From the NCBI GenBank assembly GCA_016219595.1, contig JACRLY010000048.1:1-32010 (forward strand): a DNA stretch of 32,010 nucleotides. The letters are read 5' to 3'. The first letter of the stretch is position 1. Each line of letters starts with the position of its first letter. Origin of the DNA: Ignavibacteriota bacterium (GTDB lineage Bacteria; Bacteroidota; Ignavibacteria; Kapaibacteriales; UBA2268). Below, in pieces: positions 1,291-7,213 of the stretch. Below the pieces are notes generated by a model. The model had not been told where the DNA came from. It saw only the letters and a program-made list of their open reading frames with translations, and did not search any database. The position numbers were made by a program, and so were the translations under genes.

Positions 1291-2163
1291 ATGAATTTTA
1301 ATAAAAATATTTTAATATGCCCGGATTGCGGTTCGGATTTGAATGATGAAGCAGGCAAACTTGTTTGTTTGTCATGCAAAAAGGAATATGGAATTAAAAG
1401 TGGAATACCTCATCTATATCCAAACAATTTCATTGCCAATGAAAGGAATATGGATTATGTCGAGCATTATAAATTCGATGGTGAATACTATGATTATTTC
1501 GAAGGCAGAAGCTGTAAGGCTACGGGACATGACGAAAGAAGACTGAGGGAATATATTCTTTCAAAAATTCCTAAGACATCCAGGAAAATACTCGATGTCG
1601 GGTCAGGCGGCGGATGGCTTGCTAAAGCTCTTTCAAAAAGTAATGTAGAATTAGTATCATTTGATATTTCACCGAATAATGTAGAAAATATTTTGAAATT
1701 AAATCCATTTGAATATCATATAGGAATTGTGGGAGATGCTTTAAATCCTCCATTCAGAAAGGGTATATTTGACTGCATTATATCTGCTGAAGTTATAGAA
1801 CATACCGTAGAACCTAAATTATTTATACAAGGATTGCTCCCTCTTTTGAAACCGGGCGGTGCATTAATCATCAGCACACCCTATAAAGAAAAAATTCAAT
1901 ATTCAATATGTACACATTGCAACAAGCCTACACCACACAATGCACATTTGCACTCATTTGACGAGTACAAACTAAGAGACCTTGTAGATGAAAATAAGGT
2001 TGATTATAACTATTTTACGTTTGGCAATAAGTTGCTTCATCATGCAAGAACTTACGTGCTGCTGCAGTATTTACCTTTGAGCTTATGGAAAATTGTTGAC
2101 AAGATTGCGAATTTAATAATTAACAGAAAAGAGCATATTGTTTTATTTTACAAATTAAATTAA
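1291..2163 (+). CDS. class I SAM methyltransferase with N-terminal zinc ribbon
   Basis: The N-terminus has a Trm112-like zinc ribbon: C-P-D-C-G, then C-L-S-C, then a G-I-P-H-L-Y motif typical of these small domains. A type-11 methyltransferase domain follows, with motif I I-L-D-V-G-S-G-G-G near residue 100 and L-K-P-G-G-A-L-I-I-S-T-P in the late strands. A later C-T-H-C / H-A-H-L-H-S segment resembles a subset of methyltransferases from surface-polysaccharide clusters, and the glycosyltransferase upstream fits that. Two starts are possible: GTG at 1279, overlapping the upstream stop, or ATG at 1291 with AGAAGGA about 13 bases ahead. I chose ATG because GTG would sit only one base from the Shine-Dalgarno. 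The substrate is unknown. Confidence 0.8.
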   Translation: MNFNKNILICPDCGSDLNDEAGKLVCLSCKKEYGIKSGIPHLYPNNFIANERNMDYVEHYKFDGEYYDYFEGRSCKATGHDERRLREYILSKIPKTSRKILDVGSGGGWLAKALSKSNVELVSFDISPNNVENILKLNPFEYHIGIVGDALNPPFRKGIFDCIISAEVIEHTVEPKLFIQGLLPLLKPGGALIISTPYKEKIQYSICTHCNKPTPHNAHLHSFDEYKLRDLVDENKVDYNYFTFGNKLLHHARTYVLLQYLPLSLWKIVDKIANLIINRKEHIVLFYKLN

Positions 2164-4553: not shown

Positions 4554-5381
4554 ATGAAGAATAATCCTATAGGTGTATTTGATTCGGGGATTGGCGGTTT
4601 GAGTGTACTAAAACAGTTCATTCGCTTTCTGCCTTTTGAAAGATACGTATATCTTGGCGATACGGCACGAGTACCTTATGGCAACAGGTCGCCTGAAACA
4701 GTGAAAAGATATGCAAGGGAAAGCACGAAGTTCTTGCTCGACCGAGACGTTAAGTTGATTGTAGTTGCTTGTAACACTGTGTCTGCAGTAGCCCTGGATG
4801 TTGTCAGTGAGTTGTCAAATGTCCCTGTAATTGGTATGATATATCCTGCGGCAGTAGCGGCATTAAGAGCATCAATTAATAAGAAAATCGGGGTAATCGG
4901 AACGAGAGCGACAATTAACAGCAATGCTTATACTGATGAGATTCATAAGTTAAGCAATGGTGATAAAATTAATGTCATTTCACAGGCGTGTCCTTTGTTT
5001 GTTCCGATAATTGAAGAGGGCTGGCTTGACCATCCTGCAACCAAGTTAATAATCGAGGAATATATTTCAACTCTAAAAGCCGAAAAAATAGATACACTGG
5101 TTTTGGGTTGTACTCATTATCCATTGCTTAAACAATTATTAACAGAGATGATGCCCGGTATATCATTGATTGATTCGGGTGAACACGCCGCAGTAATGGC
5201 TGTCAGGATGTTAGCCGGACAAGAAAGATTAGTCGAAGAAAAAGAAGTTTATGTTCAAAAACCTGAAATCGAATTTTATGTTACAGATATCCCTTCGACA
5301 TTTTATGATATAGCACAAAGTTTTTTGGGATTTAAAGTGGAAAGTCCACAGATAGTAAGTATAGGGAGTTTGATAAAATAG
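4554..5381 (+). CDS. murI: glutamate racemase
   Basis: This 275-residue protein interconverts L- and D-glutamate for peptidoglycan synthesis in the cytosol. Hallmarks of the Asp/Glu racemase fold are present: G-V-F-D-S-G-I-G-G-L-S-V-L at 7-19 and both catalytic cysteines, Cys73 in V-A-C-N-T-V-S-A and Cys186 in L-G-C-T-H-Y-P-L-L. The D-T-A-R-V-P-Y-G motif at 36-43 is also typical. Length is normal. The short-chain dehydrogenase begins two bases after the stop, so the two genes are almost certainly co-transcribed. The ATG start gives the family's normal N-terminus. Confidence 0.95.
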   Translation: MKNNPIGVFDSGIGGLSVLKQFIRFLPFERYVYLGDTARVPYGNRSPETVKRYARESTKFLLDRDVKLIVVACNTVSAVALDVVSELSNVPVIGMIYPAAVAALRASINKKIGVIGTRATINSNAYTDEIHKLSNGDKINVISQACPLFVPIIEEGWLDHPATKLIIEEYISTLKAEKIDTLVLGCTHYPLLKQLLTEMMPGISLIDSGEHAAVMAVRMLAGQERLVEEKEVYVQKPEIEFYVTDIPSTFYDIAQSFLGFKVESPQIVSIGSLIK

Positions 5382-5382
5382 T

Positions 5383-6150
5383 ATGGATTTAAAGGGAAAG
5401 ATAATTTTAATAACAGGTGCTTCTGCGGGAATAGGAGAAGCATGTGCAGAGGTGTTTGCCGAAGAAGGAGCAATGCTAATCCTTCTTGCAAGAAGGAAAA
5501 ATAAGCTCGATGAATTATCGAAAATAATCAAAGAAAAAAATAAAGTTGAAATTCTGAATATCGAATGTGATGTCAGAAATAGAAAAGATGTAGAAAAATG
5601 TATAAAAGAATTACCTGACAAATTTAAAAACATTGACATTCTGATTAATAATGCAGGACTGGCAAGAGGTATGAATAAGATTCAGGAAGGAAGCTTTGAT
5701 GATTGGGATGAAATGCTCGATACGAACATCAAAGGATTACTCAATGTTTCAAGATTCGTATTGCCGGGAATGGTTGAAAGAAAATCAGGTCATGTTGTGA
5801 ATATCGGTTCATTAGCAGGCAGGGAAGTTTATCCTAACGGAAATGTTTATTGCAGTACAAAACATGCTGTGAAAGCATTATCGAAAGGAATGATAATTGA
5901 TTTAAACGGTACAGGAGTAAAAGTTACAAACCTTGACCCCGGGCTTGTGGAAACCGAATTTTCGGAAGTAAGGTTTCGTGGAGATACTGAAAAAGCAAAG
6001 AAAATATACCAGGGATATACTCCGCTTACATCAAGGGATATAGCAGAAGTGGCATTATTTTGTGTAACCCGCCCACAGCATGTGATGATTCAGGATATAA
6101 TGGTAACACCGACAGACCAGGCAACTGCATTGATATTGAATAAGAAATAG
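5383..6150 (+). CDS. short-chain dehydrogenase/reductase, YdfG-like
   Basis: This 255-residue classical SDR has the Rossmann cofactor motif T-G-A-S-A-G-I-G at 11-18, N-N-A-G near residue 88 and the catalytic Ser plus Y-x-x-x-K (S-L-A-G ... Y-C-S-T-K) near 138-155. The A-R-R-K-N-K-L segment after strand 2 fits NADP(H) preference. Overall pattern, including the D-P-G-L-V-E-T-E-F-S segment, resembles YdfG-type 3-hydroxy acid/serine dehydrogenases, so an NADP-dependent oxidation of a beta-hydroxy acid is plausible. The exact substrate cannot be read. The gene starts two bases after murI, suggesting translational coupling, and ends ten bases before the convergent toxin gene. Confidence 0.88.
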   Translation: MDLKGKIILITGASAGIGEACAEVFAEEGAMLILLARRKNKLDELSKIIKEKNKVEILNIECDVRNRKDVEKCIKELPDKFKNIDILINNAGLARGMNKIQEGSFDDWDEMLDTNIKGLLNVSRFVLPGMVERKSGHVVNIGSLAGREVYPNGNVYCSTKHAVKALSKGMIIDLNGTGVKVTNLDPGLVETEFSEVRFRGDTEKAKKIYQGYTPLTSRDIAEVALFCVTRPQHVMIQDIMVTPTDQATALILNKK

Positions 6151-6160
6151 AAGTAGTTAT

Positions 6161-6496
6161 TTATTCGAAAAATAGTTGTAATTCTTTTTTAAAACTATTT
6201 ATATCATTATCAGATAATCTTCCCAATTTTTTATTGATAATAAAATTGGAAATAGTTGCAAATTTCATTCTGATTAATGATGGTTTTGGTAGTGATGCTT
6301 TTTCCCAATCTTTAATTAAATAATCTCCAATTTTGTAATCAGTATTCAAATTACTGGTTATGAAAGCAATAATAATATCATTTGATTTATTATATTCTTT
6401 TGGAGAAATTATTAATCCGGGTCTTTTCTTTGATAATGATAAATCAGTAAATGGAAAAGGAACAAGAACTATATCCCATTGATTATAAAGTATCAT
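6161..6496 (-). CDS. MazF/PemK-family toxin
   Basis: This 111-residue protein begins with the typical family signature: G/W-D-I-V-L-V-P-F-P-F-T-D-L followed by K-K-R-P-G-L-I-I-S. The conserved Arg and Pro of the RNase active-site loop are present. Family members are ribosome-independent mRNA interferases held inactive by a cognate antitoxin. The N-terminus overlaps the antitoxin gene by 14 bases, the classic antitoxin-first arrangement. The C-terminal half (residues 60-111) is less conserved but in place. It is convergent with the SDR gene. Cleavage specificity cannot be predicted. Confidence 0.85.
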   Translation of the reverse strand: MILYNQWDIVLVPFPFTDLSLSKKRPGLIISPKEYNKSNDIIIAFITSNLNTDYKIGDYLIKDWEKASLPKPSLIRMKFATISNFIINKKLGRLSDNDINSFKKELQLFFE

Positions 6497-6680
6497 ACAC
6501 AGAATCTTCTTTGTTATCCCACTCTTTAAATGAATTTTCGGAAAGTCTCATTGAATCGTAAGAATCAAATACTTCCATATCATCAATCAATGTTACTATT
6601 GCTTTTGAGTATTTAATATTGCCTGGTTTTTCAAGTAATATGATATTACCTTCGTCATATATTGCTTTTATAGTTGTCAT
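6483..6680 (-). CDS. antitoxin partner of the MazF/PemK toxin
   Basis: This is a 65-residue protein directly upstream of, and overlapping, the toxin gene. Residues 1-33 read like the small beta domain of AF2212/DUF104- or DUF2281-type antitoxins (M-T-T-I-K-A-I-Y-D-E-G then L-L-E-K-P). The tail S-F-K-E-W-D-N-K-E-D-S-V-Y-D-T-L is an acidic Trp-containing strip typical of MazE-like toxin-neutralising ends. Inference: it binds the toxin through the tail and represses its own promoter through the N-terminal domain. Assignment rests mostly on position and the tail. Confidence 0.78.
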   Translation of the reverse strand: MTTIKAIYDEGNIILLEKPGNIKYSKAIVTLIDDMEVFDSYDSMRLSENSFKEWDNKEDSVYDTL

Positions 6681-6750: not shown

Positions 6751-7104
6751 TTAGAAGTAATGGCTAATAATTAAATAAATAAATAAAATTATTTGCGGAG
6801 AGGGCGAGATTCGAACTCGCGATAGCCTTTTACAACTATGTCCCGATTGCAATCGGGTTGCTTCAGCCATAATAATCTTTTCAATATAATTTTTGTTCTT
6901 ATAACTTTTCAGTTTCTTTTCTAATTTAAGTGACTCAATTCTACTTGCACATCCCTTAGTATATACAATATTCCATGGTCCTTTTCCTTTTGTGTATTTC
7001 GATTGTCCTGAATTGTGCCGATGTAATCTTTCTTCAAGATTTTGAGTTTGACCAATGTAATATTTTCCAGTGGATTTGCTTTTTAGTATATAAACTATGT
7101 ACAT
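6751..7104 (-). CDS. GIY-YIG nuclease with tRNA-derived C-terminal tail
   Basis: This 117-residue protein has a complete UPF0213-like GIY-YIG domain in residues 1-80: V-Y-I-L, Y-Y-I-G-Q-T, the catalytic Arg in E-R-L-H-R-H-N and the metal-binding Glu in S-R-I-E-S-L-K-L-E-K-K-L. From about residue 82 (M-A-E-A-T-R-L-Q-S-G) to about 107 (V-R-I-S-P-S-P) the reading frame runs through a damaged copy of the 3' part of tRNA-Ser, so the tail is translated tRNA sequence. The start codon lies 18 bases beyond the tRNA-Ser(GCU) 3' end on the same strand, so the gene may be read from the tRNA promoter. Single-domain GIY-YIG proteins of this kind are common but poorly characterised. DNA cleavage is inferred from motifs only. 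Confidence 0.85.
   Translation of the reverse strand: MYIVYILKSKSTGKYYIGQTQNLEERLHRHNSGQSKYTKGKGPWNIVYTKGCASRIESLKLEKKLKSYKNKNYIEKIIMAEATRLQSGHSCKRLSRVRISPSPQIILFIYLIISHYF
6794..6869 (-). pseudogene. partial tRNA-Ser copy (3' three-quarters, altered anticodon arm)
   Basis: Reading the minus strand, this begins at GGCTGAAG of the D arm and ends with CCTCTCCGCA. The acceptor 3' strand, T arm and long variable arm are identical to the intact tRNA-Ser at 7125-7213. The anticodon stem-loop is replaced by the palindrome CCCGATTGCAATCGGG (16 bases, 6842-6857), which would fold as a 5-bp stem with only six loop bases. The 5' acceptor strand is missing, so it cannot form a tRNA. It lies inside the 3' end of the nuclease gene. 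Confidence 0.85.
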
Positions 7105-7169
7105 AAAAATACAGTATTAATCTGCGGAGAGGGCGAGATTCGAACTCGCGATAGCCTTTTACAACTATG
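6794..7169. repeat. 47-bp direct repeat bracketing the GIY-YIG gene
   Basis: Bases 6794-6840 and 7123-7169 are identical over 47 bp. The sequence is the tRNA-Ser 3' end from two bases beyond the discriminator back into the variable arm. The repeat period of 329 bp is almost exactly the nuclease gene plus its short leader. This resembles the attachment-site duplication left when an element enters a tRNA 3' end, but no integrase is present. Confidence 0.9.
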
Positions 7170-7213
7170 ACGGTTTAGCAAACCGTTGCCTTCAGCCACT
7201 CGGCCACCTCTCC
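7125..7213 (-). tRNA. tRNA-Ser(GCU)
   Basis: The minus strand folds as a class II tRNA: 7-bp acceptor GGAGAGG/CCTCTCC with discriminator G, D arm GCCGAG...GGCTGAAGGC, anticodon stem ACGGT/ACCGT around loop TTGCTAA (anticodon GCT), a long variable arm (AGTTGTAAAAGGCTAT) and T loop TTCGAAT in a GCGAG/CTCGC stem. The long variable arm and G discriminator are serine identity elements. CCA is not encoded (the 3' flank reads CAG). It decodes AGC and AGU. Confidence 0.95.

Follow-up and report, generated by a model that had tools for sequence, protein, structure and literature searches.

We describe a family of tRNA-associated GIY-YIG units that is widespread in several phyla, one member of which lies beside a tRNA-Ser gene in a 32,010-nt stretch of DNA from an Ignavibacteriota bacterium that was analyzed as a whole (hereinafter the window). 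As the best reading of these loci, held at about even confidence, we propose that they are tRNA-gene-specific homing-like units that leave an intact tRNA on one side, with both the cutting and the mobility predicted from comparisons of the loci. In its favor are the recurrence of the units, their tandem arrays, the existence of tRNA loci in filled, empty and remnant states, the position of the hairpins within tRNA loops, selection on the nuclease and nuclease lineages that follow the tRNA. Such a family of tRNA-targeting selfish units is apparently undescribed so far; a search of the open-access journal literature found no published description of GIY-YIG/tRNA units.

The GIY-YIG unit beside tRNA-Ser in the window

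On the minus strand of the window, an intact tRNA-Ser(GCU) (7213-7124 according to ARAGORN; 7125-7213 as an Rfam RF00005 match of 59.9 bits) is followed by a 19-nt linker, which runs from the tRNA 3′ end to the nuclease start codon (7105..7123), and by a 117-codon ORF (7104-6751) coding for a GIY-YIG nuclease of 117 aa (PF01541, E=4e-16), whose catalytic domain occupies codons 1-78 (6871-7104). Behind this domain lies a broken second copy of the tRNA-Ser (6869-6795, minus strand; 75 nt), which starts in the D-loop, extends to the acceptor, has one base missing and is half-recognized by ARAGORN as 'tRNA-???'. Its 47-nt 3′ end is identical to that of the intact tRNA-Ser and the unit is 329 bp long, which together exclude chance as the source of the repeat. 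Thus, the original prediction of an intact tRNA-Ser(GCU) followed by a small GIY-YIG gene is confirmed by ARAGORN, Rfam and PF01541, and that of an exact 47-bp match within a 329-bp unit by the alignment. The second copy had been described as the tRNA 3′ region, which holds for the exact 47-nt 3′ end; however, the copy spans the D-loop to the acceptor, and a perfect palindrome, CCCGATTGCAATCGGG (6842..6857, strand unassigned), stands where the anticodon stem was. The T-loop of the intact tRNA-Ser, GTTCGAATC (7137..7145, minus strand), corresponds to the site (GTTC|GA) at which nine independent relatives bear a hairpin.

The sole ORF inside the unit is the GIY-YIG gene, in agreement with the earlier claim that it holds no integrase or transposase. 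This ORF passes through the broken copy, which is translated as MAEATRLQSGHSCKRLSRVRISPSPQ. The last ~26 codons of the gene had been taken to be tRNA-derived; codons ~79-103 indeed are, but the ORF continues for 14 further codons before its end. Of the 66 GIY genes that have a tRNA copy downstream, just 4 have ORFs entering the copy by at least 45 nt, in mixed frames, with all three used. Given these counts, the translated tail of the window ORF is accidental, an incidental by-product. The notion that the gene carries its target as its own coding tail is therefore not supported, and a coding tail as a functional part was rejected for lack of conservation.

Two further features of this neighborhood are worth recording. 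Matches below the gathering score to Rfam RF04351 (Plastid-psbl-rps4 3'UTR) lie on the plus strand, antisense to both tRNA-Ser copies (7125-7178 and 6796-6839), so that this Rfam family probably contains an antisense tRNA-Ser. A PemK/MazF-like toxin gene and a small upstream ORF, the latter likely its antitoxin, occupy 6161-6680 on the minus strand, between a conserved SDR gene and the GIY-YIG unit.

Recurrence beside tRNA genes in several phyla

When the window protein was used to scan named genomes, 15 relatives were recovered, in Bacteroidota, Ignavibacteria, several Patescibacteria and Omnitrophota; for 12 of them, a tRNA gene (Ser, Val, Met, Asp, His, Gln, Pro or Arg) is found no more than about 130 bp away. 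A profile of the tRNA-linked nucleases has matches in 252 of the 395 genomes sampled from the phylum of the window (E 1e-6), with up to 14 nuclease copies per genome, frequently arranged in tandem with 306-370 bp per repeat, single-contig genomes included. Taking the best 110 loci among these matches, we found a same-strand intact tRNA within 300 bp of the nuclease domain at 80, a figure that describes this subfamily, since the loci are the top matches of a profile built from tRNA-linked members. An intact or partial tRNA on the same strand is found within 300 bp at 88 of the 110, and tRNA sequence flanks the nuclease on both sides at 67. The background at the same loci, more than 800 bp from the nuclease, is one tRNA in 206,641 bp, and as an internal control only 1 of 29 other small GIY-YIG genes of the order of the window is near a tRNA (Fisher P 3e-12).

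The expectation of a recurring family directly beside tRNA genes is thus supported by the 80/110 loci, and the recurrence spans more than 25 anticodons in more than 80 loci. Any single unit resembles a short tandem duplication, and the window unit could, on its own, be read as a chance duplication of tRNA-Ser that caught a neighboring gene and is unique to this assembly; the recurrence across these anticodons and loci, single-contig genomes among them, refutes this reading, which we regard as practically negligible. The same recurrence, including arrays in single-contig genomes, rules out an assembly artefact.

Carriage on phages or plasmids was considered and rejected: no relatives of the window ORF were found in phage records at E 1e-3 and plasmid records yield two matches only, weak and partial, both of which count against a homing-like unit. 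A scan of viral contigs with one relative gave no match. PADLOC matches to known anti-phage defense systems are weak and confined to the GIY domain, with no convincing model.

Broken tRNA copies and their hairpins

Across the family, the intact tRNA stands either upstream (as in the window) or downstream of the nuclease, with the broken copy on the opposite side, in line with the original prediction that an intact tRNA is left on one side of the unit. The broken copy is usually of the same tRNA as the intact one and bears one or two short hairpins (e.g., TCCCGAAGGGA and CTCCTACGGAG). These copies are truncated on the nuclease side and freely variable. Among 21 clean hairpin cases, namely those in which no tRNA base is lost, 20 inserts fall within a loop (D, anticodon or T), against an expectation of 32% (P 2e-9). 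The T-loop inserts, found in tRNAs for Ser, Cys, Glu, Ala and Arg, lie in 9/9 cases at GGTTC|GA, with a distance of exactly 18 nt to the 3′ end of the tRNA; likewise, the D-loop site GGATA|GA is common to four different Arg tRNAs and the site TTG|AAAA to three Ser(UGA) loci. At some loci, including the window, an arm is replaced by the hairpin and not inserted into.

The palindrome core of CCCGATTGCAATCGGG recurs in the tRNA-Asp array of the window genome and in G008, G010 and G051-G053. Compensatory tRNA evolution behind the altered anticodon stem was rejected, as the CCCGAT..ATCGGG core also stands in place of the stem in the tRNA-Asp copies of the window genome. The idea that these palindromes form a family confined to the tRNA units was likewise rejected because similar hairpins are found elsewhere. 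Short hairpins (TCCCGAAGGGATCCCTTCGGGA or TCCCGATNNNATCGGGA) occur in the loops of unrelated dispersed hairpin repeats (L239 and L252 in G482, L116 in G052, L099-L109 in G010).

The original prediction mentioned neither the hairpin of the broken copy nor the many further tRNA targets nor the nuclease-less tRNA arrays in the same genome. Behind the tRNA-Asp of the window genome (G000:C12:19650-20020; L067 about 1400-1760, minus strand) are three tandem 99-bp broken units, which lack a nuclease gene and whose anticodon stem is replaced by TCCCGATTGRCATCGGGA. In G051 and G052 (L111 480-1250, L114 650-1100), broken tRNA-Ala(UGC) copies that carry the same palindrome are arrayed in tandem beside a tRNA-Ile/tRNA-Ala pair, which is probably in an rRNA operon spacer. 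In G010:C31 (L007 1050-1400), five tandem ~78-bp units of the tRNA-Ser 5′ half, whose anticodon arms are all palindromic, are located upstream of an intact tRNA-Ser that bears a GIY unit on its 3′ side. Altogether, hairpin-bearing broken copies without a nuclease were found in relatives for Ala, Met, Arg and Asp tRNAs.

Since many broken copies lack a nearby nuclease and hairpins also occur in unrelated repeats, hairpin formation may be independent of the nuclease, and the hairpins may be placed by a process of their own or by one acting in trans. Taken further, slippage of replication at tRNA hairpins, or template switching there, could have produced the hairpin-scarred arrays, with the nuclease as a surviving passenger; the nuclease-less arrays in the window genome and its relatives and the hairpins found elsewhere speak for this. 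Against it, the nuclease adjoins tRNAs much more often than by chance in several phyla, and its lineages track the tRNA (see below). We consider such an origin improbable.

Fold, selection and lineages of the nuclease

The window ORF displays a GIY-YIG catalytic domain with its key residues, the invariant ones being Y5, Y16, G18, R26 and E62, and Pfam detects only GIY-YIG and the related T5orf172. Its AlphaFold model (pLDDT 91) has UPF0213 (1zg2) as the best fold match, followed by Slx1; the sequence profile ranks the relatives likewise, UPF0213 before SLX1, and the closest solved relatives by sequence are 1zg2 and 1ywl (1e-15 to 1e-14). It thus belongs by sequence type to the UPF0213/COG2827-like proteins with a single small GIY-YIG domain. 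A separate DNA-binding domain is absent: homology is confined to the one catalytic domain of about 78 codons, and the rest of the ORF is tRNA-derived or short.

With a median dN/dS of 0.23 over 57 pairs of tandem and near copies, the nuclease is under purifying selection. For 49 of 88 proteins, the best relative from a different taxonomic family is found at a tRNA for the same amino acid, whereas 1000 shuffles gave 11.6 on average and at most 27; copies at other loci of the same genome share a mean of 44% identity, with 0/44 at the same anticodon. From these comparisons, nuclease lineages track tRNA identity across taxonomic families. Part of this tracking is vertical inheritance, as 20 of 46 same-tRNA pairs share a neighboring gene; the other 26 do not. 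In several units (L171, L222, L140, L152, L160 and L223), the nuclease start codon lies 1-2 nt past the tRNA 3′ end, which leaves no room for a ribosome site; the nuclease mRNA may be leaderless once the tRNA has been cut out.

Selection on the nuclease, the transcription shared with the tRNA that is implied by ORF starts 1-2 nt past the tRNA end and the persistence of nuclease-less tRNA arrays could also be accommodated by loci that serve the host, in which the broken copies give rise to tRNA-like RNAs (with decoy, regulatory or dosage-control functions) and the nuclease has been domesticated as their partner. However, the distribution within genera is patchy, the broken copies, truncated on the nuclease side, vary freely, and the presence of up to 14 copies per genome that diverge between tRNA loci is parasite-like; a host-serving role is accordingly one that we doubt.

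The affinity to UPF0213 and to the branched-DNA nuclease SLX1, in both sequence and fold, raises another alternative, namely a REP-like system in which a structure-specific (Slx1-like) nuclease acts on DNA hairpins, the hairpin-bearing tRNA copy takes the role that the REP palindrome has for RAYT and the tRNA serves as a ready-made set of hairpins. YGTC-tagged hairpins flank other small GIY genes of the order (1.89 per kb vs 0.20 in the background); they are of the CGTC REP kind, for which a 2013 survey reported no known dedicated transposase (PMC3733652), and hairpins occur in the loops of both broken tRNAs and such repeats. Against it, a generic hairpin enzyme has no need of lineages that follow tRNA identity, tagged hairpins stand on both sides of only 6/29 non-tRNA GIY genes in a strict test and the wider repeat-flanked set (about a third) was judged by eye. 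We consider a REP-like system rather unlikely as an account of the tRNA units. TGTC-tagged hairpin repeats of the CGTC REP type flank non-tRNA small GIY-YIG genes at L018, L020, L022, L023, L034, L060, L064 and L065, and small GIY-YIG nucleases as the partner of CGTC-tagged REPs are a lead rather than a result.

Filled, empty and remnant sites

Both filled and empty tRNA loci, the comparison that had been suggested at the outset, were found in two genera, that of the window and that of G482. The three other genomes of the genus all preserve the stretch to the left of the window unit (4659-6146) in collinear form, at 79-82% identity, and each has a single intact tRNA-Ser(GCU) near it, without a nuclease or second copy. 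In the empty site of G052, the tRNA-Ser is oriented as in the window, with about 18 bp between its end and the neighboring gene. As the corresponding interval of the window also contains the PemK/MazF-like gene and its small ORF, the unit is not the sole local change.

In the genus of G482, the tRNA-Glu directly abuts its terminator in at least three species (empty), the unit separates the tRNA-Glu from its terminator in two, with the broken copy next to the terminator (filled), and one species retains a hairpin-bearing broken copy without a nuclease (remnant); a contig end in another species suggests the same remnant state. The intact tRNA-Glu is identical between filled and some empty species and is, therefore, not protected by recoding; immunity through recoding of the intact tRNA, considered as a candidate, was thus not seen for tRNA-Glu.

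A proposed homing-like mechanism

Each unit consists of a single-domain GIY-YIG gene, a linker and a fragment of the host tRNA gene that bears one or two hairpins, and it adjoins one intact tRNA, either 3′ of it (as in the window) or 5′. In the homing-like mechanism that we favor, the nuclease is predicted to recognize its own tRNA gene and to nick or cut the DNA in a loop region, i.e., the T-loop (GTTC|GA), the D-loop or the anticodon loop, upon which recombinational repair via tRNA homology would install the unit. One flank would thereby keep a complete tRNA, and the other would be left with a copy that is marked by a hairpin and no longer usable; arrays could arise from repeated rounds or unequal crossing-over.

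The closest precedent for such a mechanism is SegB of the T6 phage, a free-standing GIY-YIG enzyme that is reported to cut within tRNA genes with a preference for RAWTSGAAC and to drive tandem amplification of the tRNA-segB unit (PMC13096335). By our own reading, this motif is the complement of the tRNA T-loop GTTCSAWTY. A nuclease that cuts its tRNA gene should also cut the adjoining intact copy in its own host, which is a point against the homing-like unit; the problem would ease if the donor allele is cut inefficiently, as the same paper reports for such homing enzymes (PMC13096335). Further points against it are the intact tRNA-Glu that has not been recoded, the many hairpin-bearing broken copies without a nearby nuclease (Asp in the window genome; Ala, Met and Arg in relatives), the hairpins in unrelated repeats, the share of the target tracking that is due to vertical inheritance and the lack of a separate DNA-binding domain, by which the protein differs from known homing GIY-YIG enzymes.

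In a broader, joint reading, tRNA-gene parasites would form a large class, so far undescribed, whose tRNA-specialized single-domain GIY-YIG nuclease breaks loops and installs itself with a hairpin-scarred copy, and this class would belong to a wider alliance of small GIY-YIG nucleases and hairpin repeats that also supplies the partner of CGTC-type REPs; we put this forward tentatively, as a possibility short of the homing-like reading itself. If the homing-like reading is true, tRNA genes of several phyla host a minimal selfish unit without an integrase or transposase, with a nuclease that has diversified by tRNA species, and would offer a bacterial counterpart to the phage SegB. It would account for many oddly annotated GIY-YIG proteins and pseudo-tRNAs, provide many natural nuclease-target pairs for studying the choice of DNA by a very small GIY-YIG domain and suggest a candidate partner for palindromic repeats reported without one.

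Comparison with known systems

Like integrative elements of tRNA 3′ ends, the window-type units adjoin an intact tRNA and have a partial tRNA copy at the far end; unlike them, they lack a tyrosine or serine recombinase, are only about 300 bp long (306-370 bp), use both the 3′ and 5′ sides of tRNAs and bear a hairpin in the far copy. REPtrons, in which RAYT transposases are combined with GTAG REPs, resemble them in the small nuclease gene flanked by hairpin repeats and in having short non-autonomous relatives elsewhere (PMC3733652). However, the window unit has no HUH/Y1 transposase and its flanking repeat is a copy of the tRNA gene; the flanks of tRNA-associated GIY-YIG genes in general are tRNA-derived, hairpin-bearing copies, whose mobilization is only a candidate feature.

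The UPF0213 proteins with solved structures (BH0048 and EF2693) are the closest solved relatives by sequence (1e-15) and fold, whereas most other small GIY genes sampled in the order of the window are located away from tRNAs (1/29 near). SegB of T-even phages is similarly encoded among tRNA genes and is reported to cut inside them and to cause tandem arrays of tRNA and nuclease (PMC13096335), but it is a phage protein, whereas the bacterial nucleases are domains of about 75-85 aa on chromosomes, with lineages that correspond to tRNA identity, and the bacterial units carry a tRNA copy broken by a hairpin. With free-standing GIY-YIG homing endonucleases, the units share the catalytic domain with its key residues and presence or absence at the same locus in relatives, the difference being that the window nuclease has no separate DNA-binding domain. 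Sequence-specific cleavage of the cognate allele without the gene would be a further, candidate likeness, to which the tracking of tRNA identity by the nuclease lineages points indirectly. Among tRNA integrative elements, REPtrons and homing enzymes, it is the free-standing homing enzymes that the window-type unit, judged by these likenesses, would appear to resemble most in how it works.
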